A stretch of 14,624 nucleotides of DNA from Deltaproteobacteria bacterium (GTDB lineage: Bacteria > Desulfobacterota > JADFXK01): NCBI GenBank assembly GCA_015233285.1, contig JADFYA010000045.1, positions 1 to 14,624 on the forward strand. Direction: 5' to 3'. Shown here in pieces: positions 1 to 14,624 of this stretch. A model generated the notes under the pieces. That model saw only the letters and a list, made by a program, of their open reading frames with translations, had not been told where the DNA came from and ran no database searches. Made by a program: the position numbers and the translations under genes. The first letter of the stretch is position 1, and every line of letters begins with the position of its first letter.

Positions 1-1
1 C

Positions 2-928
2 CGGGTCGAAAACCCCAACTTGGGCTATAAGCCGCGGTATAAGGAAGGCTATTTCCCGGTTCCGCCGACCGACAAGTTCCAAGACCTGCGGACCGAGATG
101 GTCATGGTCCTGCAAGAGGCCGGGCTGGAAATCGAAGCCCAGCATCATGAAGTGGCCACCGGCGGCCAGGCCGAAATCGATCTGAAGTTTGGACCGCTGA
201 CCAAGATGGGCGACAACTTGATGCTGTATAAGTACATTGTCAAGAACGTGGCCTACCGAAATGGTTACACCGTGACTTTCATGCCCAAACCTCTATTTAA
301 GGATAATGGTTCGGGGATGCACGTTCACCAAAGTCTGTGGAAGGGCGGCACGCCGCTGTTCGCCGGTGATTGTTACGGTGGCTTAAGCCAGATGGCCTTG
401 TATTACATCGGCGGCATCTTGAAGCACGCCAAGGCCCTGTGCGCCTTCACCTCACCCACCACCAACTCCTACAAGAGATTGGTCCCCGGCTACGAAGCCC
501 CGGTAAATCTGGCCTACTCCAGCCGGAATAGAAGCGCCAGCGTCCGTATTCCCATGTACTCCGCCTCGCCCAAGGCCAAACGGGTCGAGGTCCGTTTCCC
601 AGATCCTTCCTGCAATGGATATCTGGCCTTCTCCGCCATGCTCATGGCCGGCCTGGACGGCATCGAAAATCAAATCGATCCCGGTCAGCCGCTGGACAAA
701 GACATTTATCATCTGTCACCCGAAGAGCTGGCCAACGTGCCCAGCACCCCAGGCTCCCTGGAAGAAGCCCTTGCAGCCCTTAAGGAAGATCACAAGTTTA
801 TGTTAAAGGGCGACGTATTTACTCAGGACGTCATTGACACCTGGATCGAATACAAAACCGTAAATGAAGTGGACGCCCTTAAGTTGAGACCACATCCCTA
901 TGAGTTTGGCCTTTACTTTGACGCCTAA
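2..928 (+). CDS. glnA: Glutamine synthetase, class I (partial, 5' end outside window)
   Basis: ATP-dependent ligation of ammonia to glutamate, forming glutamine; a cytoplasmic dodecamer in this family. The reading frame is open from base 2, and a class I enzyme is about 470 residues, so the 308 codons seen are roughly the C-terminal two thirds. Visible family blocks include EGYFPVPP near the left edge, a metal/glutamate-site block around [16 protein letters not shown], the HVHQSL histidine block, and the glutamate/ATP block [12 protein letters not shown] followed by [10 protein letters not shown]. In the segment [10 protein letters not shown] the tyrosine (codon 707-709) sits where enteric class I enzymes carry the adenylylated tyrosine (NLYDLPPEE), which agrees with glnE being the next gene. 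The frame is intact to the TAA stop. The family assignment is secure, and only the missing N-terminus is unknown. Confidence 0.97.
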
Positions 929-988
929 GCCGATTTTTTCTCTGTCGGTGGATTAATTTGCTTACCGTTTCATTCTCCCTCCTGTCCC

Positions 989-1014
989 GGCCGGTCCGAA
1001 TTTTCGGTCCGGCC
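989..1014 (+). other. GC-rich stem-loop downstream of glnA
   Basis: An imperfect inverted repeat has arms 989-999 and 1004-1014: GGCCGG pairs with CCGGCC, one T-T mismatch follows, then CCGA pairs with TCGG around a 4-base loop. It lies 61 bases after the glnA stop and could be a transcript 3' end or RNA stabiliser. There is no T-run after the 3' arm, so a standard intrinsic terminator cannot be claimed. A T-rich stretch (933-941) lies before it instead. Confidence 0.4.
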
Positions 1015-1032
1015 TGGACTATGTTGGGGGGG

Positions 1033-1074
1033 ACGAGTTTCGGGTTGCGAGTTACGAGTTTCGAGTTGCGTGTT
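1033..1074 (+). repeat. Heptad array A (six NNNNGTT units)
   Basis: Six consecutive 7-base units each end in GTT, with consensus close to NCGRGTT: acgagtt, tcgggtt, gcgagtt, acgagtt, tcgagtt, gcgtgtt. As a result a 17-base block at 1033-1049 recurs at 1054-1070 with one mismatch, 21 bases apart. The block 1041-1056 is complementary at 15 of 16 positions to 1278-1293 in array B, so the two arrays could fold together across the intervening region. It lies in the glnA-glnE gap and contains no gene. Confidence 0.8.
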
Positions 1075-1108
1075 GGCATTTATACTTATAACCGAATGAT
1101 CTTCATAG

Positions 1109-1160
1109 TAACATCAATCTGTTGATAATTATTAAATAACATCAATTAGGTAGATAATAT
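1109..1160 (+). repeat. 24-base imperfect direct repeat in AT-rich spacer
   Basis: Two copies (1109-1132 and 1137-1160) share an identical first 10 bases (taacatcaat) and a similar AT-rich end (gataattat versus gataatat), with starts 28 bases apart. The first copy also contains an inverted repeat, ATCAA-TCTG-TTGAT (1113-1126). The stretch 1076-1170 is much richer in A+T than its surroundings and is the natural place for a glnE promoter or operator. No convincing -35/-10 pair with normal spacing was found. Confidence 0.45.
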
Positions 1161-1245
1161 CCATCATGTCTTAGACCAGACGGCAATGAGGTTCACAGTT
1201 TTGAGAAGTCCCAGCAGGGGCATATGAAGCATGCGTCAACCCCGT

Positions 1246-1294
1246 AACCCGCAACGCGTAACCCGCAACACGGGACCCGTAACCCGCAACCCGT
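1246..1294 (-). repeat. Heptad array B (seven units, opposite orientation to array A)
   Basis: Seven consecutive 7-base units begin with AAC on the + strand (one with GAC): aacccgc, aacgcgt, aacccgc, aacacgg, gacccgt, aacccgc, aacccgt. Read on the - strand they have the NNNNGTT form of array A. The 13-mer CGTAACCCGCAAC occurs perfectly at 1243, 1257 and 1278, with start spacings of 14 and 21 bases. The array ends 3 bases before the AGGAG ribosome binding site of glnE, so any pairing with array A could affect glnE translation. Confidence 0.82.
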
Positions 1295-1297
1295 GAT

Positions 1298-1302
1298 AGG
1301 AG
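1298..1302 (+). promoter_or_regulatory. Ribosome binding site deciding the glnE start
   Basis: AGGAG at 1298-1302 leaves 7 bases before the ATG at 1310, an ideal spacing. An in-frame GTG at 1304 is only 1 base from it and is therefore a poor start. Confidence 0.75.
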
Positions 1303-1309
1303 TGTGCCC

Positions 1310-4300
1310 ATGCTCCGTGAAGACAGGCTACAGGATCTCATCGAACGGTCGGCCGACCCGACGGGGGTGTCGCCACGGCTGGAAAGATTGATATCGTCCG
1401 CCGATTTCCCCGGGTTGGATGAAAAGAGCATGGGGCATCTGGTGACCATCCTGGCCGCCTCTTCTTATTTTGCCAGGCTCCTGGCGGCTGATGTGTCGTT
1501 GGTGCACTGGTTGTTTCATGACCGGGCCCTATACCAGCCGGTCCGTAAAAAGGATATCTCCAGAGAACTTGACCAGTTTATCGGCGAGAAGGCCGATTTC
1601 GATGCCCTCTGCCGGGCGTTGAGAGTGGTTAAGCGCCGGGCTTTCTTAAGAATCGGTGCCCGTGACCTGCTGGGCCTGACCGGGATGCCGGAAACGACCA
1701 GATCCCTGTCTATGCTGGCGGAGCTTTGCCTTGACCGGGCCGTAGTGATGAGCACCGCCCAGTTGAAGCGTGACTACGGCACCCCGGTCCAAGAACCTGA
1801 CAACGGCATCGGCAAAAAAGCCAAATTCGTCGTTATGGGTATGGGCAAGTTTTCTGGTTGGGATTTAAATTTTTCCTCAGATGTGGACTTGATCTATCTT
1901 TATTCTTCCCGCAACGGCCAGACAGATGGGATAAATCCATTTACGGGAGACACCGTCAAGCCGATTTCTCTGACAGAATTTTATAACAAACTGGCCATGT
2001 TAATTACAAAGGCCATTGGCGCACCGATTGACGGCGAATGGGTCTTTCGGGTGGATTTGGGTTTGCGGCCGGGGGGCAAAGAAGGTGAGATGGCCCAGAC
2101 GGTGTCCTCTGCCGCCCTCCATTACCAGTTCCGTGGAGATCCCTGGGAGCGGTTGGCCTTGATGCGGGCCCGTCCCGTGGCCGGTGACCTGCTCTTAGGC
2201 AAGGTCTTTTTAGACAACATCAACTCGTTTATTTTCCGCCGCTCTCTGGATTATACGGCTATTGAAGAAATCAGAGCCCTAAAGAGGCGGATTGAGAGAG
2301 AAGGCCAAACCAGCACCAGGGCCGGGCGACTTAATATCAAGCTTTGTCAAGGGGGGATCCGGTCGCTGGAGTTTTTTGTCCAGACACTCCAGATGATCTA
2401 TGGCGGACGCGTCACCGGATTGCGCAAGCGCGGCACTTTGGCCGCCCTGAGAGCCTTGGTCTCGGCCGGGATCATCCAGGAAGCGGATAAGAGCCTCTTA
2501 GATACCGGATATCGTTTCCTAAGAAACGTGGAGCACCGGCTTCAAATGTTTGACCAGCAGCAAACTCAAGATCTGCCGACCGCCCCGGAAGACCTCTACC
2601 GGTTGGCCGTAAGTATGGGGTTTCCACCTGTTGAGGGCCGGGAAGGGGTGGCTGATTTTCTGGATACGCTTGATCGCGTCCTGGCTGATGTGAGACGATT
2701 TTTTGATCAACTTTTTCATGATCCCGAACAGGAAGGCGTGCGGGATTACATGGAAAAATTTGATGTTTTGATGGATGTTCCAGAGGTTGAGGCGAAAGAA
2801 ACACTGGGGAAAATCGGTTTTACCAATCCCGGCGCGGCATTTGAGTGTCTGAAGAAATTTGTCCACCCGGTCAAGCCGGGCTTATATAGCCAGTCGATTC
2901 GTCGGCATATGAAGAAGACCGCCGCCTTATTTCTGGATCTGGTGCCCCATTTGCCCAATCCTGACCGGGCGGCTTATCGTTTTGGGCAATTCCGGGACCG
3001 GATCGGGGCTGGGGGAGAAGGCATCTACGCCTTACTGGCTGAGAATCCAGCCACCTTGACCTTGTTGACCCGGATATTTTCTTTAAGCCCATTCCTGTCC
3101 CAAATATTTATAGCCACCCCGGAAATGCTGGACTCCCTGGTTTTGAGATCGGAAGGTTTACGAATTAAGACTCGCGGCGATATGATCCAGGAACTGGGCC
3201 GGATGATGAATCAGACCGCCACCCGGGAAGAACGCTACGAAGTCCTGAGACGTTATAAGAACGAAGAAATCCTTCGGATTGGGGTTCATCATCTGGCCGG
3301 CAGCTTAAACTCGCTGGAAGCAGAGGCTCAGCTCACCTCCATGGCCCGGGTTGCGCTCAAAGCGGCGATGGATCTGGCCCATCAAGACCTGATTAAAAGA
3401 TATGCCTTACCCTTGGGTGATGGAAAGCTGCCCTTCGCCATTATGGGCCTGGGCAAACTCGGTGGCGGAGAACTGTCGTATAACTCGGATCTGGATGTCG
3501 TTTTCGTTTATACCCGGCAACGGGGTTACACGGCCATGGCCTCCGAGGATAAATTTTCGGAACAGATCAAGGATCGGTTGACGCCCATCACTCTTCAGGA
3601 GTACTTCTTGCGTCTGGCCCAACGGATTATCTCGATTTTATCTGTGCCGCTAAAAGAAGGGCCGGGATATGCCATCGACTCAGAGTTGCGGCCGTCAGGC
3701 ACCTTTGGCCCGCTGGTCGTGTCCGTAACCGGTTTTGAAGAGTATCATACCACCTCCCAGTTGTGGGAACGTCAGGCCCTGCTGAAGATGAACCCGGCCA
3801 CCGGCAATGAGGAATTGTGCCTGGCCATTACCCGGCTGACCTGGGAGATTATCAAGCAGACCGGGGAAAACGAAGAGAAGATCGCCTCTCAGATCAGGTC
3901 CATGCGAGATCGTGTCCGGCAAGAGAGACGCAAAGGAGATCCTCGGGCGATTCACCTCAAGCTTGACCCAGGTGGGCTGCTGGATGTGGAATTCGCGGTG
4001 CAATGCCTCCAACTCAAGCACGGCAAGGATGCCCCGCAGGTCTTAACACCCAATACCGTGGCCGCCATCGACCAACTGGAACAAGCCGGGATTATGGGCT
4101 TAGATCAGGCTGAACCATTGCGGAACGGCTATGTCTTTCTCAAGCAACTGGATCATCGGATGCGGCTGATGACCAACCTGACCGGAGATGAAGCCGTTAG
4201 CCGGGCAGAGGAAATCATGGCCGGGGCCTCCGGCCTGAGCCAGGTAAGCGGTGATCCGCTCCAGACGCTGAAAAAGACCATGACCGGCATTGCCGCCACT

Positions 4301-4327
4301 ACGGAGGAGATACTGAGCACGGATTAG
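1310..4327 (+). CDS. glnE: Bifunctional glutamine synthetase adenylyltransferase/deadenylase
   Basis: Transfers AMP from ATP to the regulatory tyrosine of glutamine synthetase, and removes it by phosphorolysis, to tune nitrogen assimilation; in the family this responds to PII and glutamine. The product is 1005 residues, slightly longer than the roughly 946 of E. coli. It shows the two expected nucleotidyltransferase modules. The N-terminal one (deadenylase half in the family) has a GMGKFSG motif and FSSDVDL with the DxD pair at residues 191/193. The C-terminal one (adenylylase half) has GLGKLGGGELSYNSDLD with DxD at 727/729. Each is followed by an alpha-helical GlnE/GlnD-UTase-like segment (EFFVQTLQ...HRLQMFDQQQTQDLP in the first half, HLKLDPGGLLDVEFAVQ in the second). 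The start ATG 1310 is chosen from the ribosome binding site. It follows glnA after a 381-base gap that contains repeats. Confidence 0.97.
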   Translation: MLREDRLQDLIERSADPTGVSPRLERLISSADFPGLDEKSMGHLVTILAASSYFARLLAADVSLVHWLFHDRALYQPVRKKDISRELDQFIGEKADFDALCRALRVVKRRAFLRIGARDLLGLTGMPETTRSLSMLAELCLDRAVVMSTAQLKRDYGTPVQEPDNGIGKKAKFVVMGMGKFSGWDLNFSSDVDLIYLYSSRNGQTDGINPFTGDTVKPISLTEFYNKLAMLITKAIGAPIDGEWVFRVDLGLRPGGKEGEMAQTVSSAALHYQFRGDPWERLALMRARPVAGDLLLGKVFLDNINSFIFRRSLDYTAIEEIRALKRRIEREGQTSTRAGRLNIKLCQGGIRSLEFFVQTLQMIYGGRVTGLRKRGTLAALRALVSAGIIQEADKSLLDTGYRFLRNVEHRLQMFDQQQTQDLPTAPEDLYRLAVSMGFPPVEGREGVADFLDTLDRVLADVRRFFDQLFHDPEQEGVRDYMEKFDVLMDVPEVEAKETLGKIGFTNPGAAFECLKKFVHPVKPGLYSQSIRRHMKKTAALFLDLVPHLPNPDRAAYRFGQFRDRIGAGGEGIYALLAENPATLTLLTRIFSLSPFLSQIFIATPEMLDSLVLRSEGLRIKTRGDMIQELGRMMNQTATREERYEVLRRYKNEEILRIGVHHLAGSLNSLEAEAQLTSMARVALKAAMDLAHQDLIKRYALPLGDGKLPFAIMGLGKLGGGELSYNSDLDVVFVYTRQRGYTAMASEDKFSEQIKDRLTPITLQEYFLRLAQRIISILSVPLKEGPGYAIDSELRPSGTFGPLVVSVTGFEEYHTTSQLWERQALLKMNPATGNEELCLAITRLTWEIIKQTGENEEKIASQIRSMRDRVRQERRKGDPRAIHLKLDPGGLLDVEFAVQCLQLKHGKDAPQVLTPNTVAAIDQLEQAGIMGLDQAEPLRNGYVFLKQLDHRMRLMTNLTGDEAVSRAEEIMAGASGLSQVSGDPLQTLKKTMTGIAATTEEILSTD

Positions 4328-4353
4328 GGCCAGGGGCATTTGCAGGTTTTTCC

Positions 4354-4358
4354 GGAGG
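4354..4358 (+). promoter_or_regulatory. Ribosome binding site deciding the ATPase gene start
   Basis: GGAGG at 4354-4358 is 5 bases upstream of the in-frame GTG at 4364. An in-frame TTG at 4340 has only a weaker AGGGG 3 bases upstream. The protein from GTG begins VAEGNRFIRSV, just before the first conserved strand, as in similar ATPases that begin shortly before that strand. Confidence 0.6.
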
Positions 4359-4363
4359 GAATT

Positions 4364-5584
4364 GTGGCTGAGGGAAACAGGTTCATCAGATCGGTGGGTT
4401 TGAAAAATATCTTGTCTTTTGGGGCAACGGAAAGGCAGATTGAGTTTGGGCCGCTCAATGTTATGATTGGTCTGAATGGCTCCGGAAAATCAAATCTTAT
4501 CGAGGTGTTGAGCCTGCTGCAGGCCTCTCCCAAAGATTTTCTTGTACCCATTCGTCAGGGTGGGGGAGTCCGCGAGTGGCTGTATAAAGGATCGGATATC
4601 GCTCCGATTGCCGAGATCAACGCCGTCGTCGATTACCCTGATGGGAGTATGCCGCTCAGGTACAAGTCGGCCTTCACGATGGTGGGGCAACGCCTGGAAA
4701 TGTACGACGAAGCAGTGGAGGATGAACGCCCTTTGCGCGGGGAAGAAGATGACGTCTATTTTTACTACCGATATCAGCGAGGTAATCCGGTAGTTAACAT
4801 CCAGACATCCCACTCTGAATCAGCCGACCAGGCCCCGGAACGCACCCGTCGCTTCCTTCGGCGGCAGGATTTGGACCCTGAACAGTCGGTGCTGTCTCAG
4901 CGAAAAGATCCAGACCAAGATCCGGAACTGACTTACCTGGCGGATAGCTTTTCAAAGATGAAATTCTACCGGGAATGGAATCAGGGCCGACTCAGCCCCG
5001 CCAGATTGCCTCAAAAAACAGACCTCCCGGCAGACTTCTTGCTGGAAGATGCCAGTAATCTGGGATTAGTCTTAAATAACTTACAACACCATCCCTCTAT
5101 AAAAAAAAGAATCGTTGAACGACTGAGAAAAATTTATGAACCCGTCGAAGAGATAGACATTAATGTGTATGGAGGGACGGTTCAATTATTTTTCCACGAA
5201 ACAGACCTTCTTCAGCCTGTCCCAGCCACCCGCCTATCGGACGGGACCATCAGGTTTCTCTGTCTGCTGACCATACTCTTGCATCCTTCTCCGCCTCCGG
5301 TCATCTGTTTGGAGGAACCTGAACTGGGGCTTCATCCCGATGCCCTGTCCACCGTTGCCGATCTATTGAAGGAGGCCTCAAAAAGGACCCAATTGTTCGT
5401 CACCACTCACTCCGACCTGCTGGTCTCAGAATTATCCGACGTTCCGGAAAGCGTTCTTGTTTGCGAGCGAGACCCGGACGGCACCTATTTCCGCCGTCTG
5501 GAAAAAGACAAGCTCCAGGACTGGTTGGAGAAATATTCCTTAGGCGGACTCTGGCTCATGGGCGAACTCGGGGGGACCAGGTGA
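4364..5584 (+). CDS. AAA family ATPase, ABC/RecF-like (AAA_21 type), paired with DUF4276 protein
   Basis: A 406-residue cytoplasmic ATPase of the ABC/SMC/RecF type; no signal peptide or membrane segment is visible. An N-terminal strand pair (IRSVGLKNILSFG) leads to Walker A GLNGSGKS at residues 36-43. An ABC-like signature LSDGT lies near 290, Walker B with catalytic glutamates (VICLEEPELGLHP) near 312-324, and a switch histidine in VTTHSD near 346. The region between about 130 and 230 is charged and variable and replaces the long coiled coil of SMC proteins. It starts 36 bases after glnE, so read-through from glnE is possible, and its stop overlaps a potential GTG start of the next gene. Families with this architecture include OLD-like ATPases and the AriA ATPase of PARIS defence systems. 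A defence role here is inference. The ATPase assignment is firm but the biological function is unknown. Confidence 0.88.
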   Translation: MAEGNRFIRSVGLKNILSFGATERQIEFGPLNVMIGLNGSGKSNLIEVLSLLQASPKDFLVPIRQGGGVREWLYKGSDIAPIAEINAVVDYPDGSMPLRYKSAFTMVGQRLEMYDEAVEDERPLRGEEDDVYFYYRYQRGNPVVNIQTSHSESADQAPERTRRFLRRQDLDPEQSVLSQRKDPDQDPELTYLADSFSKMKFYREWNQGRLSPARLPQKTDLPADFLLEDASNLGLVLNNLQHHPSIKKRIVERLRKIYEPVEEIDINVYGGTVQLFFHETDLLQPVPATRLSDGTIRFLCLLTILLHPSPPPVICLEEPELGLHPDALSTVADLLKEASKRTQLFVTTHSDLLVSELSDVPESVLVCERDPDGTYFRRLEKDKLQDWLEKYSLGGLWLMGELGGTR

Positions 5585-5586
5585 CA

Positions 5587-6201
5587 ATGGAAATTCGAAT
5601 TTACGTTGAAGGGGGCGGGGATGCCAAAGAAGGAAAATTGGCCATCCGGAACGGCTTCAACGATTTCTTCAGGTCGCTGCGCCAACGCGCCCGACAGAAA
5701 AGGATAAGATGGAGCATTATTGCTTGCGGGTCGCGGGGAGAGGCATTTAGGGGTTTCAAAATCGCTTTGCGGGACCAACCGGACGCCCACCTCGTTCTTC
5801 TGGTAGATTCCGAGGCGTTTGTTGCCGCCAAGGACCCCTGGCAACATTTGGCTACCAGTGACGGATGGGAAATTACCGGTCTAACGAACCGGCCGTGCTA
5901 CATGATGGTCCAGGCCATGGAGGCATGGATCATTGCCGACCCGGATAAATTGTCGACTTATTACGGCCAGGGATTCAATCCCAATGCAATTCCCAAGAAT
6001 CCCAACGTCGAACAAATAGAAAGGGATTCGCTTGAGCCGGCCTTGAAGGCAGCCACCCGCCTGACCACTAAAGGCGAGTATCATAAGATCAAACATGGGC
6101 CTAAGCTGCTGGCGCTGCTTTCACCGGAGGAAGTGTGCCGAAAAGCCGAACACTGCCGAAGGCTGTTTGAGGATTTGAACTTATTGTTGTCATCGTCCTA
6201 A
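5587..6201 (+). CDS. DUF4276 family protein (TOPRIM-like), partner of the upstream ATPase
   Basis: A 204-residue protein that I recognise as DUF4276. Visible blocks are YVEGGGD near the N-terminus (E8, D12), ACGSRGEAF, LLVDSE (D74, E76), a MMVQAMEAWIIAD helix at 106-118, YGQGFNPNAIPKNPNVE, and TTKGEYHKIKHG at 160-171. An early Glu in an EG turn plus a later acidic Dx(D/E) pair is the arrangement of TOPRIM metal-binding folds, so a Mg-dependent nuclease-like active site is plausible but inferred. Start: ATG 5587, which gives MEIRIYVEGGGD. An in-frame GTG at 5581 would overlap the ATPase stop by 4 bases and is a real alternative; a GGGGGA at 5570-5575 could serve either. The tight coupling suggests the two proteins act together. 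An ATPase plus a TOPRIM protein is the logic of PARIS (AriA/AriB) and OLD-type defence, but AriB uses a different domain (DUF4435). Confidence 0.85.
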   Translation: MEIRIYVEGGGDAKEGKLAIRNGFNDFFRSLRQRARQKRIRWSIIACGSRGEAFRGFKIALRDQPDAHLVLLVDSEAFVAAKDPWQHLATSDGWEITGLTNRPCYMMVQAMEAWIIADPDKLSTYYGQGFNPNAIPKNPNVEQIERDSLEPALKAATRLTTKGEYHKIKHGPKLLALLSPEEVCRKAEHCRRLFEDLNLLLSSS

Positions 6202-6688
6202 GACGCGTGACCATCCATCTGAAGACCCAGAGGAATGGACACGACGTGGTGCATTTTCTTTTTCTGCCCGGTCGGGTGGCACCCCCGGCCCAAAAAAATT
6301 GAGGTCAAAATATTTTTCTATTGCATTTCCATCTCAAAGAAGGTAAAAGCGGTAACTTTGCCGTAGCGGCTACTTTCAGGTAATTTTATGGCATTAAGAA
6401 AAGAAACGATAACGATAAACCAGGTTTTCCTCCGGCCGTTGGGCGACAACCCTCAGGCCCGTCTTTATCGGATTAGTCTCGCGGCGGGCATCACTTAGCG
6501 ACTAGTCCCTTTCCGGCCATCAGCCAAATCGGCACTGTTTCTGCGGGACCGGGGGCAAAGAAACAAAAATGCCGCATCGGAATGGCTGTTCCTCGGCGTC
6601 ATCTCTATGTTCATTGTTGCTTTGATTGGCGAAAGGCAACTTGGGCGACCGGTTAAGATATTGAAAAGTCCCAGGACAAGGACCAACC
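6202..6688. other. 487-base intergenic region without a convincing gene
   Basis: This gap separates the ATPase/DUF4276 pair from mvhD and must hold the start of the mvhD-metV-metF transcript if that operon has its own promoter. It contains a GC-rich stem-loop at 6270-6290, A+T-rich stretches (6291-6330 and 6381-6420), and several short inverted repeats between about 6430 and 6510. One of these is GTTG-GGCGA-CAAC enclosed by GGCC arms; another is TAGTC pairing with GACTA. Two short open frames exist (6235-6366, 43 codons; 6388-6498, 36 codons), but neither looks like a known protein. I recognise no riboswitch consensus, tRNA or transposon end. The AAGGA at 6678-6682 is the mvhD ribosome binding site. 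Confidence 0.5.
6270..6290. other. GC-rich stem-loop between a T-tract and an A-tract
   Basis: A 7-bp stem (6270-6276 with 6284-6290, including one G-T pair) closes a 7-base loop. T-rich sequence precedes it (6254-6263) and seven A residues follow (6292-6298), so the two tracts could extend the stem. A T-run follows the stem on neither strand, so it is not a normal intrinsic terminator in either direction. It lies 69 bases after the DUF4276 stop. Confidence 0.35.
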
Positions 6689-7114
6689 ATGAAAAAAAAT
6701 GTTGAAACCACTCTGACTGTTTTCTATTGTCAAAACAGCTTTAAAGAAAATAAGCGGACGCTGGAAGCCCAGGCGGGACCAAGGGTCAGACTCTTCCCCA
6801 TTCCCTGCAGCGGCCGACTGGAGCCTCTGTTCTTATTGCGGGCTCTGGAAGGTGGCGCTGATGCCGCCTGCCTGTTTGTCTGCCCGGAGGGGGCTTGCCG
6901 CTATTTTGAAGGCAACCGCAGGGCGTCCAAGCGGGTGGCTTATACCCAAAAAATGCTCAAAGAGATCGGCCTGGAGGAGGACCGGGTGTTCATCACTTTT
7001 ATGTCGGCCAATGAGAAACGCCCGCCCAAAAAGATGATTCTGGACGCCTTGGCCGCCGCGGAAAAATTGGGGCCGTCCCCCTTGAACAAGGCGCCCCTAA
7101 AGGAGAAAAAATAA
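6689..7114 (+). CDS. mvhD: MvhD/FlpD-like hydrogenase iron-sulfur subunit
   Basis: A small 141-residue electron-transfer protein of the MvhD/FlpD family. In methanogens MvhD links a hydrogenase or formate dehydrogenase to heterodisulfide reductase HdrA through a [2Fe-2S] cluster. Family features visible here are an N-terminal strand ending FYCQNS (C14), PCSGRLEPLFLLRALEGGAD (C40), FVCPEGACRYFEGN (C65, C70), and a terminal RVFITFMSANE block. The usual N-terminal CxxC appears as C14-Q-N-S17, so the second cysteine is absent; C61 is an extra cysteine. The start ATG is preceded by AAGGA at 6 bases. The gene overlaps metV by 1 base (TAATG). In acetogens such as Moorella, MvhD accompanies HdrABC and MetVF; no HdrA, B or C is in this window. 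The family call is good, but the electron partner is unknown. Confidence 0.87.
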   Translation: MKKNVETTLTVFYCQNSFKENKRTLEAQAGPRVRLFPIPCSGRLEPLFLLRALEGGADAACLFVCPEGACRYFEGNRRASKRVAYTQKMLKEIGLEEDRVFITFMSANEKRPPKKMILDALAAAEKLGPSPLNKAPLKEKK

Positions 7115-7782
7115 TGATCACCGCAACCAGAAAACCCTTAGACGATATCAAGGCCATGATTCGTCCGTTTAAGAAAGTTCTTATCGCCGGATGCGGGTCT
7201 TGCGTGGCCGAATGTGCGGCGGGTGGCGAAAAGGAGGTGGCGCAACTGGCTTCATCCTTGCGAATGGCCTTCAAACTTGAGGGGCAAGCCATCGAACTGA
7301 ATGAGATCACCGTAGACCGACAATGCGTGAATATCTTTTTGGACCAACTTGAGCAACCTACCCAGGCCAATGAAGCGGTCCTGTCTTTGGCTTGCGGCGC
7401 CGGGGTCCAGGCCCTGGCCGAACGGCATCCCGACCGCCACGTCTTCCCTGCCTTAGACACCCAGTTTCTCGGCCAGACCAAACAGCCGGGGCTGTGGCTG
7501 GAAAATTGCCTGGGCTGCGGCCAGTGCAAGCTTTATTACTTTGGCGCCGTTTGTCCCTTAGCCCGGTGCGCCAAGCAGTTGTTTAACGGACCATGCGGGG
7601 GTTCCCAAAAGGGTAAGTGCGAAGTGGATCCGGATAAGCCCTGTGCCTGGCAATTAATCATTGATCGTCTTGGTGCCCTTAACGCCCTCGACCGGCTGGA
7701 AGAAGTCTATGAGCCCGTTGACTGGTCTTGTAAGCAAGGACGGGGACCGCGGAAAATCGTGAGGGAGGATCAACAAAGTTGA
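7114..7782 (+). CDS. metV: MetV: methylenetetrahydrofolate reductase Fe-S partner subunit
   Basis: A 222-residue protein carrying the zinc/Fe-S C-terminal-type domain of methylenetetrahydrofolate reductase, made as a separate subunit. In acetogens MetV forms a complex with MetF and feeds it electrons. The N-terminal GCGSCVAEC (C27, C30, C34) is typical of the family, as is the C-terminal cysteine cluster LGCGQCKLYYFGAVCPLARC followed by GPCGG, KCEV and KPCAW, enough cysteines for at least one cluster or zinc site. AGGAG at 7101-7105 precedes the ATG by 8 bases. Translation is probably coupled to mvhD (1-base overlap) and to metF (4-base overlap). The assignment is supported both by motifs and by position directly before metF. 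No frameshift or truncation is seen. Confidence 0.9.
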   Translation: MITATRKPLDDIKAMIRPFKKVLIAGCGSCVAECAAGGEKEVAQLASSLRMAFKLEGQAIELNEITVDRQCVNIFLDQLEQPTQANEAVLSLACGAGVQALAERHPDRHVFPALDTQFLGQTKQPGLWLENCLGCGQCKLYYFGAVCPLARCAKQLFNGPCGGSQKGKCEVDPDKPCAWQLIIDRLGALNALDRLEEVYEPVDWSCKQGRGPRKIVREDQQS

Positions 7783-8729
7783 AGACAACAAGCCACTTAA
7801 AACAGGTACTCGCCCAGGGTCATTTTGCCGTAACCGCGGAAGCCGGGCCGCCCAAGGGTTGTGATCCGGAAGTAATTAATAAAAAAGCCGAGATACTCAA
7901 AGGATCGGTGGATGCAGTGAACGTCACCGACAACCAGACCGGGATCGTCCGCATGTCCAGTATGGCCGCCTGTGCTTTGCTCCTCCGGGCCGGGATCGAG
8001 CCGGTGCTTCAAATGGTCGTTCGTGATCGAAACCGGATCGCCCTGCAATCGGATATTCTGGGCGCGGCAGCTCTGGGAATACAAAATGTGATGTGCTTAT
8101 CCGGTGATCATCAAACCTTCGGCAATCAACCCGGGGCCATGGGGGTATTTGACCTGGACTCCATCCAATTTGTGGCCACGGTCAAGAAGATGCGGGATGA
8201 AAGCGTTATCTTAGGCGGGGATCCACTCACCTCGGCGCCACCCATGTTTATCGGTGCGGCCGCCAATCCCTTTGCTGATCCTCTCCCCTTCCGAGTGACC
8301 CGGCTGGCCAAAAAGATCAAGGCCGGGGCGGATTTCATCCAAACCCAATGCATATTTAATCTGCCTCGGTTTAAGGAATTCATGACCATGGTCCGGGACC
8401 GGGGGCTGGACCGGCAGGTGGCCATCTTAGGCGGCATCACACCCATCAAATCGGTAGGTATGGCCAAGTACATGGCCGAAAAAGTCGCCGGTATGGATGT
8501 CCCGCCCGAAATCATCGCCCGAATTAACGGCGTGCCCAAAAAGAATCAGCGGGATGAAGGGCTGAAGATCTGTCAGGAAACCATCCAAGCTTTAAAAGAG
8601 ATCGAGGGAGTGCGGGGCATCCACATTATGGCCATTGAATGGGAGGAAGCTGTTCCCCAGATCGTCAAGGAGGCCGGGCTGCTCCCACGGCCGGCTGTAA
8701 GTGGTGACGGAGGTCCCCATGCCGGCTAA
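7779..8729 (+). CDS. metF: Methylenetetrahydrofolate reductase (MetVF type)
   Basis: Reduces 5,10-methylene-THF to 5-methyl-THF, a step of the methyl branch of the Wood-Ljungdahl pathway and the source of methyl groups for methionine. The product is 316 residues, a normal length for the FAD-dependent TIM-barrel enzyme. Conserved pieces are TAEAGPPKG with E21 in the position of the E. coli catalytic Glu28, VNVTDNQTGIVRMS, QMVVRDRNRIALQSDILGA, CLSGDH with D110 at the place of E. coli Asp120, and DFIQTQCIF. The start is TTG 7779, overlapping the metV stop by 4 bases, with GGGAGG at 7763-7768. The 3' end overlaps the next gene by 11 bases. It lacks the C-terminal regulatory region of eukaryotic enzymes. 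Reductant is likely delivered through MetV and perhaps MvhD rather than by direct NAD(P)H, which is inferred from the neighbours. Confidence 0.95.
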   Translation: MKTTSHLKQVLAQGHFAVTAEAGPPKGCDPEVINKKAEILKGSVDAVNVTDNQTGIVRMSSMAACALLLRAGIEPVLQMVVRDRNRIALQSDILGAAALGIQNVMCLSGDHQTFGNQPGAMGVFDLDSIQFVATVKKMRDESVILGGDPLTSAPPMFIGAAANPFADPLPFRVTRLAKKIKAGADFIQTQCIFNLPRFKEFMTMVRDRGLDRQVAILGGITPIKSVGMAKYMAEKVAGMDVPPEIIARINGVPKKNQRDEGLKICQETIQALKEIEGVRGIHIMAIEWEEAVPQIVKEAGLLPRPAVSGDGGPHAG

Positions 8730-10107
8730 GTATCATATCCATACCCAGGAAACTCCTCCCCGGTTTAAGGCGCTGATTCGTTCCGGCGTCATTGCCTGGG
8801 AAGAGGGCTGTTTGAAGTGCGCGGTGTGCGTGAAAAAACAGTGTGTCTATAAGGTCTACGACCAGCGGAATTTAGATGGACGGCAGATGCTTGATTCCAT
8901 AGACACCCTGTGCAAAGACTGCTACCGGTGCGTCCAGGGATGCCCGGCCCGGCTGATCAATAAAGCGATTAATCCGGAATACTTACAAATCGGGGACGAG
9001 ACCTTTACCCCGGAAATCATCACCAAGACCTGGAACCAGGCGGCCACCGGCAAAATTCCGGTGAGTGGAGCCGGGTACGGCGGTAAGTTCAGCGGCAAAG
9101 GCTTTGATGCCATGTGGACGGACATGTCCGAAATTGTCCGGCCCACCCGAGACGGGATTCACGGCCGGGAATACATCAGCACCGGGGTGGACTTGGGCCG
9201 GAAGGATATGTATTTAAAAACCGGGAAAAACGGCGAGATGAAACTGCCGACTTATCCCTCGGTCCGAATAGAACATCCGGTCCTTCTTCAGGTGCCCTCC
9301 TTCGGCGCGATCAAAAAGCCCTTTTTGCTGGGCCTGGCCGCGGCCGCCCATAACCTGCTGACCCAGGCCATCATTCCCGCCGCGGCGATTGACCGGGACT
9401 TCAGGCCGCATCTGGCCCATGTTGTCCCGTCTCTGGAGCCAAACATCGGCTTAGACGAAAAGATGCTCAGCAAGGTGTCCATGGTGGAGATCGTCGACCA
9501 CCCCAAGGTCATGCATCAGGTCGCTAAAATAAAAAAGAAATCGTCCAAAGTGACGGTTATCGTCAAGGTGCCCCTGAATAAAAAATCACCGGCTCGATGC
9601 CTGGATCTGGTCCAGACCGGGGCTGAGGTGATTCATCTGGCCGGGAATGATGACGGCCGGGAAAATACTCCCAAAAACGCCCGCTATATCAAAGATGCCA
9701 TCGCCGACGTGCATCAGAAACTGGTGGAAAACAACGTGCGGGACATGGTCAGTCTGATCACCTCCGGCGGCATTGCCCTGGCCGAGCATGTGGCCAAAGG
9801 CATTATCTGCGGATCCGACGCCATAGTGGCTGATGTGGCCCTGCTGGTGGCGGTGGAATGCCGGGTCTGCCGAGGCTGTAAGCAGGGGCTGCCCTGTCCG
9901 GTTTGCATCGAAGACATCAATGCTGATTGGGCGACCCATCGGATGGTCAATTTGCTGGGCGCCTGGCATAACCAGTTGCTTGAAATTTCCGGAGCCATGG
10001 GAATCAGGGACATTCGCCGCATGAGAGGCGAGCGCGGCCGGGCCATGTTTTTTGAGGAATTGGAGAAGATGGTCTTTGCCGGACTGGGAAAACCTGCCGC
10101 GAAATAA
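8719..10107 (+). CDS. Divergent glutamate synthase FMN-domain-like iron-sulfur protein
   Basis: A 462-residue protein. The N-terminal ferredoxin part has two cysteine sets, C31xxC34xxC37xxxxC42 and C65xxC68xxC71xxxC75P, suited to two [4Fe-4S] clusters. The rest resembles the FMN/Fe-S domain of glutamate synthase: VLLQVPSFGAIKKPF, a late barrel strand SLITSGGIALAEHVAKGI, then a cluster motif C381xxC384xxC387xxxxxC393PxC396 and a DWATHRMVNLLGAWHNQ tail paralleling DWVAQRLINMYQAWRAE of the downstream paralogue. It lacks the TGEGG, QGAKPG and SVEDH-type motifs of active FMN subunits, so catalysis at this site is doubtful; it may act as a structural or electron-transfer partner. The start ATG 8719 follows GGAGG (8709-8713) by 5 bases. 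In-frame GTG codons at 8701 and 8704 are less suited. It overlaps metF by 11 bases, which suggests co-expression. Confidence 0.85.
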   Translation: MPAKYHIHTQETPPRFKALIRSGVIAWEEGCLKCAVCVKKQCVYKVYDQRNLDGRQMLDSIDTLCKDCYRCVQGCPARLINKAINPEYLQIGDETFTPEIITKTWNQAATGKIPVSGAGYGGKFSGKGFDAMWTDMSEIVRPTRDGIHGREYISTGVDLGRKDMYLKTGKNGEMKLPTYPSVRIEHPVLLQVPSFGAIKKPFLLGLAAAAHNLLTQAIIPAAAIDRDFRPHLAHVVPSLEPNIGLDEKMLSKVSMVEIVDHPKVMHQVAKIKKKSSKVTVIVKVPLNKKSPARCLDLVQTGAEVIHLAGNDDGRENTPKNARYIKDAIADVHQKLVENNVRDMVSLITSGGIALAEHVAKGIICGSDAIVADVALLVAVECRVCRGCKQGLPCPVCIEDINADWATHRMVNLLGAWHNQLLEISGAMGIRDIRRMRGERGRAMFFEELEKMVFAGLGKPAAK

Positions 10108-10110
10108 ACT

Positions 10111-10214
10111 ACGGGTTGCTGGTTTCAAGTTGCCGGTTGCATGTTACTTGTTACTCGTTGAAGACAACTAGCGACAGGTAACGAGTAACCAGTGACCAGC
10201 AACGAGCAGCCAGT
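10111..10214. repeat. Palindromic heptad array C (seven NNNNGTT units, then seven AACNNNN-type units)
   Basis: Bases 10111-10159 are seven unbroken 7-base units ending in GTT (acgggtt, gctggtt, tcaagtt, gccggtt, gcatgtt, acttgtt, actcgtt). After 6 bases, 10166-10214 are seven units in the opposite sense (aactagc, gacaggt, aacgagt, aaccagt, gaccagc, aacgagc, agccagt). A perfect 10-bp inverted repeat joins the halves: 10150-10159 with 10180-10189. The array starts 4 bases after the stop of the upstream gene and ends 41 bases before the GTG of the next, so it would be transcribed within the operon. It is the same repeat family as the two arrays before glnE. Confidence 0.85.
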
Positions 10215-10255
10215 GACAAAACATAAGTCAAAATAGGAAACAGAGGACGGCATCA

Positions 10256-11761
10256 GTGAACGCTCCAACAAAAGCTTTTGATCCATCGCAAGTGAAGGAA
10301 GCCCCTTCACGGTTTCGAACCGCCCTTGGAAAATATCGGGTCTCCAGGTCGGCCAAATGCACTGTCTGCGGACTGTGTGTGGACGTCTGCCCCTTGGGAG
10401 TAAATGAAAAGACCGGCGGGCGGATCACCAGTCCACGGGACTATAAGTGTCTGGGGCCGAAGTGTCCGACCGCATGTTTCAAGCAGTGCCCGGTTCAAGC
10501 CATTACCGTCAGGACAGACCCCACTTTCGAGACAATGGGTGACTACCGCTGGACCGGAGATATGCTGGTCAGCACCTATTACATGTGCGAGACCGGGCGG
10601 ATTCCCCAAAACGGGTTGGAATACCGGACAGGCGCCTCCGAAGGCGGCTTCGATAAGCTGCGGCTTATTTTTCCTAAAGATCCGGCCCAGGTTTCTCCCG
10701 AGGAAGTGGACACTTCCATCGAATTGAACCGCACCGGCGACGGGCGGCCTCAAATAGACATTCCTTTTCCGGTCTACGGCGGCGGGATGTCCTTCGGGTC
10801 GGTCAGTATCCGGGCTATTGTCGGCCGGATGAAAGCGGCCCAGGCCCTTAATTCCTTTTGCTGCACCGGTGAGGGCGGCTACCCTGATGATCTTATCCCC
10901 TATGACAATCATGTCATCACTCAGGTGGCCACCGGGCTCTTCGGGGTCCGGGAAGAGACTATCCAGCGCGTCCGGATCGTGGAATTTAAATATGCCCAAG
11001 GGGCTAAACCGGGTCTGGGCGGGCACTTGCTGGGTGATAAGGTGACCCCGGCCGTGGCCAAGATGCGTGAGGCTGTGGTCGGCAGCGCTTTGTTCTCCCC
11101 CTTTCCTTTCCACAGCGTTTATTCGGTAGAGGATCACAAAAAACACATCGACTGGATTAAGGCCACCAACTCCAAGGCCCTGGTCTCGGTAAAGGTATCC
11201 ACTCCGACAGATGTGGATATGGTCGCGGTGGGGAGCTACTTCGCCGGGGCTCATATTATTCATCTGGACGGTTCCTACGGCGGAACCGGCGCGGCCCCGG
11301 ATATCGCAAAGAAAAATATCGCCATGCCCATCGAATATGCCGTCCCCATGGTGCATCGATTCCTGGTCGCCGAAGGGATCAGAGACAAGATCACCTTGAT
11401 CGCCAGCGGCGGTATTCGGACCCCCCACGACCTGATCAAAATTGTGGCCCTGGGCGCGGATGGAATAGTGACCGGAACGGCCGATATGGTGGCCATGGAA
11501 TGCGTCCGGTGTCATAACTGCGAAAGTGGCCGGGGCTGTGCCCGAGGCATCGCCACTACCGACACGGGCCTGGTCGAAATCATGAAGGCGGATTGGGTAG
11601 CCCAGAGATTGATCAATATGTATCAGGCCTGGCGGGCGGAAGTTCAAAGAATACTGGCCAAGATGGGACTGAAAAGCATCCGCCAACTGGTTGGTCGCAC
11701 CGAATTTCTGGCTCATTTAGACTACCTGCCGGATCACGTCGATGGCGAAATAGAGTATTGA
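10256..11761 (+). CDS. gltB: Glutamate synthase FMN-domain subunit with ferredoxin domain (archaeal-type GltB)
   Basis: A 501-residue FMN/Fe-S synthase subunit that would reduce the 2-iminoglutarate formed from 2-oxoglutarate and ammonia to glutamate. The N-terminal ferredoxin has C35xxC38xxC41xxxC45P and a second set around C65, C70, C74, C78P. The FMN domain has GGGMSFGSVS near 172-181, CCTGEGGYP near 203-211, KYAQGAKPGLGGHLLGDKVT near 245-265, SPFPFHSVYSVEDH near 281-294, GSYGGTGAAPD near 338-348 and a late SGGIRTPHD strand. A cysteine cluster C416xxC419xxC422xxxxxC428 corresponds to the [3Fe-4S] motif of glutamate synthases. It lacks the amidotransferase and GXGXG domains, which are supplied by the next gene, as in split archaeal enzymes. 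Start GTG 10256, with AGAGGA at 10242-10247. No NAD(P)H-oxidising GltD is in the window. Confidence 0.93.
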   Translation: MNAPTKAFDPSQVKEAPSRFRTALGKYRVSRSAKCTVCGLCVDVCPLGVNEKTGGRITSPRDYKCLGPKCPTACFKQCPVQAITVRTDPTFETMGDYRWTGDMLVSTYYMCETGRIPQNGLEYRTGASEGGFDKLRLIFPKDPAQVSPEEVDTSIELNRTGDGRPQIDIPFPVYGGGMSFGSVSIRAIVGRMKAAQALNSFCCTGEGGYPDDLIPYDNHVITQVATGLFGVREETIQRVRIVEFKYAQGAKPGLGGHLLGDKVTPAVAKMREAVVGSALFSPFPFHSVYSVEDHKKHIDWIKATNSKALVSVKVSTPTDVDMVAVGSYFAGAHIIHLDGSYGGTGAAPDIAKKNIAMPIEYAVPMVHRFLVAEGIRDKITLIASGGIRTPHDLIKIVALGADGIVTGTADMVAMECVRCHNCESGRGCARGIATTDTGLVEIMKADWVAQRLINMYQAWRAEVQRILAKMGLKSIRQLVGRTEFLAHLDYLPDHVDGEIEY

Positions 11762-11794
11762 TGCCATAAAAATACTTAGGAGTCGTAACCAAAT

Positions 11795-14443
11795 ATGAAC
11801 AGCCATGAATATGTCCGAAGTATCTTGGCCGCCAGGCAGGACCTCTACAAGGGGATGCCCAAAAATTTGAGCCTTTCGACAGAAGAAGAGGGCGGCTGCG
11901 GCGTTACCGGATTCTGCTGCAGCATTCCCGTCCGGGGCCGGCACATCTTCAAACCTTCCGCCCAGATGCACAACCGGGGCAACGGCAAGGGCGGCGGCAT
12001 TGCGGCCATGGGGTTTATCCCGGAGATGTTGGGCGTAGACCAGACCACCCTTAACGAGGATTACCTGATCCATATCGCCGACCTCGACGGCGAGGGGCTG
12101 AAGGCCCTGGAAGATAAGTTCATCTATCCCTTCCTGGATGTCCATCTGGCCGAGAATATCCCCCATGTGGACGACTACCGGGACATCGCGGGGCTGGAGG
12201 TGCGGCCGCCGGACATCTATCGTTACTTTGCCCGGGTTAAGCCCAACGTCCTAAAAGCCTTTGCCGCTAAAAAAGGGCTGACCAAAATGGCCCCCAGGGA
12301 TCTGGAAGACGAATTCATTTATCAGAATTCAGTCAGTATAAACAGAACCTTCTATGATCCTCAGGGTAAGATGAAGGCCTTTGTTATGTCCCATGGCCGG
12401 AATTTCTTCGTCCTGAAAATAGTCGGTTATGCCGAATGGGTGGTGCAGTACTATAAGCTGGACAATTTTAAGGCCAATATTTGGATCGCCCATCAACGCT
12501 ACCCCACTAAAGGCCGGGTCTGGCATCCGGGCGGGGCGCATCCGTTTATCGGCTTAAACGAAGCTCTGGTGCACAACGGGGATTTCGCCAATTATTACTC
12601 CGTGGCCGAATACCTCAAGCAACGGAATATCTTCCCGCTATTCCACACCGACACCGAGGTGTCCGCCCTGCTGTTTGATCTCTATAGCCGGGTTTACGGA
12701 TATTCCCTGGAGCATCTCATCGAGGCGCTGGCCCCGACCCAAGAGATGGATTTCGATTACCTGTCTAAAGACCGCCAGCGGATCTACCAGGAAATTCAGA
12801 AGACCCACATCCATGCTTCGCCGGACGGCCCCTGGTTCTTTATCGTGGCCCGGAACGATACCAAAAATAACGAGCTGCAGCTTCTGGGCATCACGGATAC
12901 GGCCATGCTGCGGCCCCAGGTCTTCGCCCTTCAGGAAGGCTCGATCAAAATCGGTCTGGTTTGTTCTGAAAAACAAGCCATTGACGCCACCCTGGACAGT
13001 CTGGCGGCGGAAGACCCCAGATTCGGCACCGTGGCTGATATGTACTGGAATGCCCGCGGGGGAAGCCATACTGATGGCGGAACTTTCATTTTCCGGTTGG
13101 ATAATTCCAAGAGCAACGGTGAAGAGAAGCCGATGACCTGTACCGACAAGTTCGGTCGGGAAATCAAGGCCCCCCAAAACCAGGTTCCCTTTCTTCCCGG
13201 CCGGGTGTTCTACCTGATGGACGACGGTCAGAAACCCATGCTGGACCTGACAGAGGAATATGCCAAAGGTGATGCGGACGCACTCTACAAAATGTTCATC
13301 GCCTCCATCCGGGATTGGGATTATGCCGAGACTCTCGATTGTTTAAAGGAGCTTAAACGGCAGGCCAATGAATCGGACGGAAATCTTGACTTGACCCTGA
13401 GTGTCATGACCAGGTTAATCGATTTGCGGTATCCGACCTTCGAGAAGAAAAGAAGATCTTTGCTTCAGATGTACAACTATACCTTGAATCGGATTCTCTG
13501 CGGTGTGGCCCCCTTGAATTCGGACCAGGCCCAAGGGAAATACCGCTACATCGATTTTGAAAGCCGGAAGACCTTGCGGGCGCCCTTACCGGGTGAAGCC
13601 GTCCTGGTAGTAGACTCAGCCTTGTTCCCACCAGAAGGCGACGAGGCCGACGGGGTCTTGCTTCGGGAAGCTTATCGCCTGGGCTGGAAACAGTTCATTA
13701 TTTTCCGGTGCCGCGGGCAAAGGTTCTATGGATGTGGCTTCGGGCCGGCCACTCAGGGCGTCCGGATGGACATCTACGGCAGCTCCGGGGATTATATCGC
13801 CTCCGGGGCAGACGGACTGGAGATCTATATCCACGGCAATGCCCAAGACCAGTTGGGCCAGATCATGAAAGAAGGCAAACTGGTTATTTACGGCGACGTG
13901 GGGCAGACCTTCATGTATGGCGCCAAGGGCGGCGATGTTTACATCATGGGTAATGCCGCGGGCCGGCCTCTGATTAACGCCGTGGGTCATCCTCGGGTGG
14001 TCATCAATGGGACCTGTCTCGACTTCCTGGCTGAATCATTCATGGCCGGTGATCCCCTCAACGGAGGCGGTTTCGTCGTGGTTAACGGCATGACTATCGA
14101 CCACCAGGGCAACGTCATTCCGCAGGCATCACCTTATCCCGGCTCCAATCTCTTCTCTCTGGCCTCGGGTGGGGCGATCTATGTGCGTGACCCCCATAAG
14201 CTACTGGTGGAAGAGCAGCTCAACGGCGGTGTCTACGCCGACATGACCGAAGCCGACTGGGAATTGATCTTGCCCTATCTTCAAGAAAACGAGCGGCTGT
14301 TCAATATCTCGGTCGAAAATCACTTGCTTAAAGTGGATGGCCAACCCCGGACCTACGATGAGGTTTACCGCAAAGTAGCCGCCCAGAAACTGGCCGTGCT
14401 CACCGGGAAAGCCCAAAAAGACGGCTTAGAAGAGTATAAATAG
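11795..14443 (+). CDS. Glutamate synthase amidotransferase-GXGXG fusion subunit
   Basis: An 882-residue protein. The N-terminal class II glutamine amidotransferase would hydrolyse glutamine to release ammonia. The presumed nucleophile is C35 in GGCGVTGF; it would be exposed after removal of a 34-residue propeptide, as family members use an N-terminal Cys. Glutamine-site motifs follow: HNRGNGKGGG, HQRYPT (R235) and HNGDF (residues 260-264), then HTDTEVSAL. A long middle region (roughly 430-600) is less conserved. From about 658 to 770 lies a right-handed GXGXG beta-helix (DIYGSSGDYIASGADG, IHGNAQDQLGQ, GDVGQTFMYGAKGG, MGNAAGRP), the glutamate synthase domain 3. The FMN domain normally between the two is absent and is encoded by the preceding gene 33 bases upstream. 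AGGAG at 11778-11782 precedes the ATG by 12 bases. Together with the preceding gene it would complete a split GOGAT large subunit. Confidence 0.92.
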   Translation: MNSHEYVRSILAARQDLYKGMPKNLSLSTEEEGGCGVTGFCCSIPVRGRHIFKPSAQMHNRGNGKGGGIAAMGFIPEMLGVDQTTLNEDYLIHIADLDGEGLKALEDKFIYPFLDVHLAENIPHVDDYRDIAGLEVRPPDIYRYFARVKPNVLKAFAAKKGLTKMAPRDLEDEFIYQNSVSINRTFYDPQGKMKAFVMSHGRNFFVLKIVGYAEWVVQYYKLDNFKANIWIAHQRYPTKGRVWHPGGAHPFIGLNEALVHNGDFANYYSVAEYLKQRNIFPLFHTDTEVSALLFDLYSRVYGYSLEHLIEALAPTQEMDFDYLSKDRQRIYQEIQKTHIHASPDGPWFFIVARNDTKNNELQLLGITDTAMLRPQVFALQEGSIKIGLVCSEKQAIDATLDSLAAEDPRFGTVADMYWNARGGSHTDGGTFIFRLDNSKSNGEEKPMTCTDKFGREIKAPQNQVPFLPGRVFYLMDDGQKPMLDLTEEYAKGDADALYKMFIASIRDWDYAETLDCLKELKRQANESDGNLDLTLSVMTRLIDLRYPTFEKKRRSLLQMYNYTLNRILCGVAPLNSDQAQGKYRYIDFESRKTLRAPLPGEAVLVVDSALFPPEGDEADGVLLREAYRLGWKQFIIFRCRGQRFYGCGFGPATQGVRMDIYGSSGDYIASGADGLEIYIHGNAQDQLGQIMKEGKLVIYGDVGQTFMYGAKGGDVYIMGNAAGRPLINAVGHPRVVINGTCLDFLAESFMAGDPLNGGGFVVVNGMTIDHQGNVIPQASPYPGSNLFSLASGGAIYVRDPHKLLVEEQLNGGVYADMTEADWELILPYLQENERLFNISVENHLLKVDGQPRTYDEVYRKVAAQKLAVLTGKAQKDGLEEYK

Positions 14444-14477
14444 GCAAATCAGCCGTAACCGATAAAATAAACTTCAG

Positions 14478-14520
14478 ATTAAGGGCGCCGGGGATTATGA
14501 ACGGTGCCCTTAATTTCTTT
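14478..14520 (+). terminator. Intrinsic terminator after the glutamate synthase genes
   Basis: A 12-bp stem, 14478-14489 pairing with 14503-14514 (ATTAAGGGCGCC with GGTGCCCTTAAT, one G-T pair), closes a 13-base loop and is followed by a T-rich tail (TTTCTTT). It begins 35 bases after the last stop codon. This is the clearest terminator in the window and likely ends the transcript containing the glutamate synthase genes. Confidence 0.85.
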
Positions 14521-14567
14521 GGCCCTGAGTTGGACGAGTTCTATTGATTGAAAAATAGAAATTAATC

Positions 14568-14619
14568 CGCAGATTACTGAAATCCATAGTCACTGATCAT
14601 TCGTCTTTTTTAATCTGCG
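14568..14619. repeat. 9-bp perfect inverted repeat at the right edge
   Basis: CGCAGATTA at 14568-14576 is matched by its reverse complement TAATCTGCG at 14611-14619, with 34 bases between, in the A+T-rich sequence after the terminator. A T-run (14605-14610) lies just before the right arm. It could belong to the control region of the next gene or be a dispersed repeat, and the window ends too soon to tell. Confidence 0.4.
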
Positions 14620-14624
14620 CAAAT

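Follow-up and report, generated by a model that had tools for sequence, protein, structure and literature searches.

What an ATPase gene and a DUF4276 gene are doing between glnE and a set of one-carbon (C1) genes is the question raised by a 14,624-nucleotide stretch of DNA from a Deltaproteobacteria bacterium (assembly GCA_015233285.1, contig JADFYA010000045.1, positions 1 to 14,624), here called the window. The first gene, open reading frame (ORF) A (4364..5584, + strand), encodes an OLD/SMC-type ABC ATPase of 406 amino acids, and the second, ORF B (5581..6201, + strand), encodes a DUF4276 protein that is a putative TOPRIM nuclease. An initial annotation made from the letters of the window had suggested that the two form a defence module, with the ATPase as sensor and the DUF4276 protein as effector. 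The observation itself was right and its interpretation is partly supported. We consider it likely that the pair is an HEC-01 module, a two-gene, split OLD-type system that, by analogy with related systems, would act in PARIS-like abortive infection.

In PADLOC-DB 2.0.0, where HEC stands for Hma-embedded candidate, the best match of A is HEC-01A (PDLC04177, E value 9e-173, residues 6-406 of 406) and the best match of B is HEC-01B (PDLC04201, 3.6e-74, residues 1-198 of 204). The assignment is read from E value and coverage, which is almost full length for both models, and the window pair also shows the HEC-01 gene arrangement, with the two genes adjacent and on one strand. B matches 11 PADLOC families at E ≤ 1, every one of them HEC-01B. 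The window copy differs from the catalogued system in lying outside any Hma or other defence locus. Because the pair matches a defence candidate that is already catalogued, the system is not new, and the expectation of a system "related but distinct" from known ones holds with respect to PARIS but not with respect to the catalogue. PARIS likewise has an OLD/Rad50-like ATPase in the adjoining gene, but its AriB is a DUF4435 protein, whereas window B belongs to DUF4276. Membership in PARIS was ruled out on this ground from PADLOC, Pfam and hhalign, the last of which aligned B to one DUF4435 protein with a probability of 0.5% and no profile-level match. The combination of ATPase and TOPRIM is also common to OLD classes 1-3 (P2 Old, Gabija GajA, and retron Eco8 OLD), but these carry both domains in one chain, and membership was ruled out since the window pair has them on separate ORFs. 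Gabija is further set apart by the adjoining UvrD-like helicase GajB, the neighbours of the window pair being glnE and flpD instead. PDC-M07 has a similar type of ATPase (PDC-M07A matches A at 6.8e-27) but a different nuclease partner, PDC-M07B, which reads as a PIN domain and is without a Pfam match. Septu contributes PtuA to the fold matches of A, but its partner PtuB, an HNH nuclease, differs from B.

HEC-01 is a named candidate, on which we found little in print. In the accessible text of one study, several HECs are antiviral, and HEC-06 is named there while HEC-01 is not (PMC12988326). According to the available excerpts of other papers, HEC-04 is an ABC ATPase fused to TOPRIM that acts on T4 and T5 but not on T7 or lambda (PMC12111858), HEC-01 is listed in Desulfovibrio piger (PMC12724379), TOPRIM-linked OLD-ABC pairs serve as backup effectors in BREX loci (PMC12839542), and the split ATPase/TOPRIM form is a proposed class 4 of OLD (PMC10568477). 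Our literature search, which covered publications other than preprints, found no report on HEC-01 beyond the D. piger listing and no paper mentioning DUF4276.

ORF A starts with GTG at 4364, 36 bases past the glnE stop, and ends with TGA at 5582-5584. The sequence GGAGGG at 4354..4359 (+ strand), identical in the sister locus L001, is by direct reading its probable ribosome-binding site. The protein matches Pfam AAA_21 with an E value of 1.9e-38, and all the ATPase motifs noticed at the outset are present; their key residues fall in columns that do not vary among 41 aligned sequences, one of them from the window. These motifs, all read on the + strand, are Walker A (GLNGSGKS, residues 36-43, 4469..4492; G36, N38, G41, K42, and S43 invariant), the ABC signature (LSDGT, residues 291-295, 5234..5248; S292 and G294), the Walker B and D-loop region (EEPELGLHPD, residues 317-326, 5312..5341; E317 and E318), and the switch-His motif (TTHS, residues 347-350, 5402..5413; T347, T348, H349, and S350). 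The motifs for binding and hydrolysing ATP are intact in ORF A, an ABC ATPase of the SMC/Rad50/OLD type. Its profile matches AriA chains (E 5e-6), and Eco8 OLD is found among both its sequence and its fold matches; AriA is absent from the best 50 fold matches listed for the model of A. In the database, the protein of ORF A (P0121, 373 amino acids) begins 33 residues late (4364-4462 being left out) and thereby loses the first strands before Walker A.

The two frames had been described as overlapping or nearly touching, and the overlap stands after a correction of the start of B. The codon at the ATG first taken as the start (5587) is AGG in L001, while the GTG that overlaps the stop of A is retained there, and the likely start of B is therefore GTG 5581, giving a protein of 206 amino acids. 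DUF4276 is the sole Pfam family matched by B at E ≤ 1e-3 (2.1e-22). Numbered from ATG 5587, B contains Glu E8 (5608..5610, + strand) in the TOPRIM motif 1 sequence YVEGGGD, and D74-S-E76 (5806..5814, + strand) as a DxD-type motif. E8, D74, and E76, which had been pointed out in the initial annotation, are invariant both in 44 close sequences and in 20 sequences picked for divergence, window B being part of each alignment. From their order and the known TOPRIM motifs, we take them to correspond to the motif-1 Glu and the DxD/DxE ligands. A fold was predicted for B with a predicted local distance difference test (pLDDT) score of 90, and its six best structural matches are TOPRIM domains of OLD, PARIS AriB, and GajA, with modest Z scores, the OLD C-terminal domains ranking at the top. 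Solved structures searched with the sequence of B yielded no credible match, and Foldseek alone returned nothing at E ≤ 1e-3 against the PDB or against viral libraries. The predicted fold and the conserved residues support the proposed pairing of an ATPase with a TOPRIM nuclease, and on the model B is a probable TOPRIM-like nuclease with the acidic triad E8/D74/E76 as candidate metal ligands. With a probable fold and named candidate catalytic residues, the mechanism of B is simply testable.

The association of the two genes was followed in the best 80 of 194 confirmed genome loci and one viral locus. An ATPase ORF lies ahead of B in 79 of these 81 loci, so the combination is no chance juxtaposition. 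In 77 of the 79, A ends no more than about 130 bases from where the B ORF begins (in L033, where the ATPase is in two pieces, this applies to the second); the exceptions are L005, where 393 bases lie between the two, and L068, where the B ORF was called too far upstream. The two loci without an ATPase ahead of B are L066, where B is at the contig end, and L064, where no B ORF was called. The ATPase is split or shortened in a few relatives, and B carries an in-frame stop in L152, L154, L155, and L002, which suggests decay after acquisition. A search for A-B fusions gave long DUF4276-bearing proteins for 4 of 2174 candidates. Of the three inspected, P0243 looks frameshifted and P0244 is missing the second half of the ATPase, while P0242 (600 amino acids, both Pfam domains) may, from its sequence, be genuinely fused or have arisen by a frameshift.

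Together with the PADLOC match, relatives located in or near BREX, restriction, and PARIS-like genes support the defence reading. In L050, BrxC precedes A and B, and PglXI, a gene unmatched in PADLOC, and a BrxHI/HII helicase follow them in that order. A similar BREX-like set, its proteins named by reading, surrounds A and B on the viral contig L081, the same contig being recovered when the viral scan was made with the ATPase. In L019, a type I restriction endonuclease is encoded directly upstream of the pair and a methyltransferase farther up; a type I specificity subunit and an NsnB-like ATPase lie upstream in L029, and an NsnB ATPase in L058. L015 has a PDC-M07A/B pair near HEC-01, and clustering places homologues of it at L057 and L060. 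In L008 (Laspinema), an AriA-like ATPase and a DUF4435/AriB protein are encoded directly upstream of the HEC-01 pair; there, L008:4963-10600 holds a metallophosphatase, the AriA-like ATPase, the DUF4435 protein, and the HEC-01 pair in one row, so that two split ATPase-TOPRIM modules stand side by side.

The neighbourhoods of DUF4276 genes, for which a survey had been suggested, were also compared by their numbers of PADLOC families. From 49 loci with long flanks, 14 with a B at least 75% identical to a kept one were removed, leaving 35, with L001 and L081 set aside. As controls, 20 regions were chosen, of which one proved nonexistent and two, under 5 kb, were dropped; of the 113 proteins listed for the remaining 17, one very long protein was dropped. 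At E ≤ 1e-30, 48 and 53 families were matched by 109 and 101 neighbour proteins of the 35 loci, vs 15 families by the 112 control proteins. These counts favour defence enrichment around the relatives, although the comparison counts families, not loci, and is not a clean test because the members are unlisted and the sets unequal in size.

In PARIS, Ocr-like anti-restriction proteins act as triggers and the nuclease cleaves tRNA. By analogy with AriA and AriB of that system, ATPase A would serve as a scaffold that keeps B inactive. On detecting a phage-linked trigger, A would free or activate B, which would then cut nucleic acid by two-metal catalysis, and the infection would be stopped through halting or death of the cell. 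The likely substrate of B would be host tRNA or DNA, with the evidence favouring neither. Somewhat speculatively, HEC-01 could be a second, independently built split-OLD alarm, in which the sensing of an anti-restriction or anti-BREX factor from a phage would release the DUF4276 TOPRIM nuclease from inhibition by its ATPase. Such a role would account for the relatives that lie inside BREX operons or next to type I restriction genes and PARIS-like pairs, and the copy after glnE would then be a long-domesticated, stand-alone alarm.

Some observations suit instead a housekeeping or stress function, in which A would be a RecF/SMC-like DNA sensor and B would process DNA or RNA in repair or growth. 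The pair occupies the same site in the window and in L001, and glnE is followed by A in G003, the third genome of the family. Moreover, of 80 loci, made up of L081 and 79 from genomes, 20 have mutS within a few genes on the downstream side of B, 17 of them as the adjoining gene; all 20 are cyanobacterial, and their mutS genes were identified by Pfam in two cases and by clustering in the others. An archaeal OLD-family ATPase, Cran1, has a cell-cycle role and apparently none in defence, as far as the available text of that report goes (PMC12796447). We nevertheless regard a housekeeping function, which the initial annotation had offered as its alternative, as unlikely. Among 80 genomes from the order of Anabaena subtropica (G061, the genome of L003), searched with limits of 1e-100 for MutS and 1e-15 for B, MutS was detected in 78 and B in 11, and three of the 11 B copies have an internal stop. 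Only three of the 11 have mutS within 1.5 kb of B, and in G089 it is on the same contig, about 6 kb off. MutS as a required partner was ruled out by these numbers. Since the pair is gained, lost, and decaying in this cyanobacterial order, it is accessory and not housekeeping. Also against a housekeeping role, B was detected in just one of 59 genomes searched around G001, namely G001 itself, and the relatives described above lie within BREX or beside restriction or PARIS-like genes.

We likewise think it improbable that the pair is a stand-alone toxin-antitoxin or addiction module, in which A would neutralise B and the pair would persist by addiction or anti-plasmid action. The strict pairing and the overlapping genes would fit such a module, the Pfam text for AAA_21 reads "putative AbiEii toxin, Type IV TA system" (TA, toxin-antitoxin), and a PDB entry labels the PARIS ATPase "AriA antitoxin". 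However, a relative is embedded in a BREX operon, and plasmid and phage records contain no B at E 1e-5; the mechanism would, moreover, overlap with that of abortive infection. That the pair is a formerly mobile passenger, functionless and decaying after glnE, is very improbable, for although B evolves fastest among the 10 genes compared with L001 (ratio of nonsynonymous to synonymous substitution rates, dN/dS, of 0.248) and broken copies occur elsewhere, as in the cyanobacterial B genes with stops, both ORFs are open with intact motifs in the window and in L001. The dN/dS values of A (0.139) and B are well below 1, and both genes are therefore under purifying selection; seven of the eight neighbours gave 0.019-0.093, and flpD, with a low dS, gave 0.193.

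The site after glnE had been called unusual for a defence module. The position is confirmed, and it is probably that of an old insertion inherited in one family. L001 has the gene order of the window, with identities of 99% for glnA, 94% for glnE, 91% for A, 84% for B, 96% for flpD, and 97% for both metV and metF. In G003, glnE (95%) and A (90%) are followed by the contig end, which is why B is not seen there, and no glnE turned up in G002, the remaining member of the family, so that this genome does not bear on the site. G048 has glnE (33% identical) followed by flpD-metV-metF with the pair absent. This genome is our sole example of an empty site, because in the other closest C1 clusters (G006, G011, G022, and G041) glnE does not precede flpD. 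The pair probably entered the gap separating glnE from the C1 operon in a common ancestor of the window organism, L001, and G003 and has been inherited vertically since, which is the simplest account. The location after glnE is thus a secondary feature of one lineage. That this pair occurs within BREX in some cases and as a stable chromosomal unit of its own in others is relevant to the question of how defence modules become established in core parts of the genome.

The insertion is bounded upstream by glnE, encoding glutamine synthetase adenylyltransferase (1304..4327, + strand; Pfam GlnE, 3e-103), and downstream by flpD (6689..7114, + strand; Pfam FlpD, 1.4e-24), the first gene of the C1/glutamate-synthase cluster. 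By Pfam, the neighbours in the window are glutamine synthetase, GlnE, FlpD, the methylenetetrahydrofolate reductase (MTHFR) C-terminal family DUF5981, MTHFR, and glutamate-synthase proteins; the scan, which took in ten window proteins, found neither a helicase nor a reverse transcriptase. Sequence composition shows no more than a slight dip over the pair. A search for flanking direct repeats gave nothing, and a tRNA search nothing useful. Promoter-like sites number five, vs a shuffle mean of 2.0, and terminator-like sites three, vs a shuffle mean of 3.6.

The 487 non-coding bases before flpD (6202-6688), in which Rfam found no match, are 92% identical to L001, more than the 90.7% of ORF A and the 87.1% of ORF B; blocks that are almost the same in both loci lie around 6310-6375 and immediately ahead of flpD. 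This stretch may carry a promoter or leader for the C1/glutamate-synthase operon. Positions 6689-14443 hold flpD-metV-metF and three glutamate-synthase-like genes, linking C1 and nitrogen metabolism, and L119, L121, L122, and L123 keep this order throughout the sequence retrieved for them. An open frame of 469 amino acids on the - strand (10307-11716), antisense to a glutamate-synthase gene, is probably a by-product of composition.

Among the relatives, the stretch upstream of mutS in filamentous cyanobacteria (L003, L015, L057, L060, and others) holds HEC-01 and sometimes PDC-M07, and is perhaps a hot spot for insertions. Among the 109 neighbour proteins, one matches Cas12k; by its length it is probably L003:14219-16135. 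In L014, the next gene after the pair (10865-12604) encodes a protein with a TerD domain and pentapeptide repeats, and the cluster of this protein is represented at five loci (L002, L004, L011, L014, and L021).
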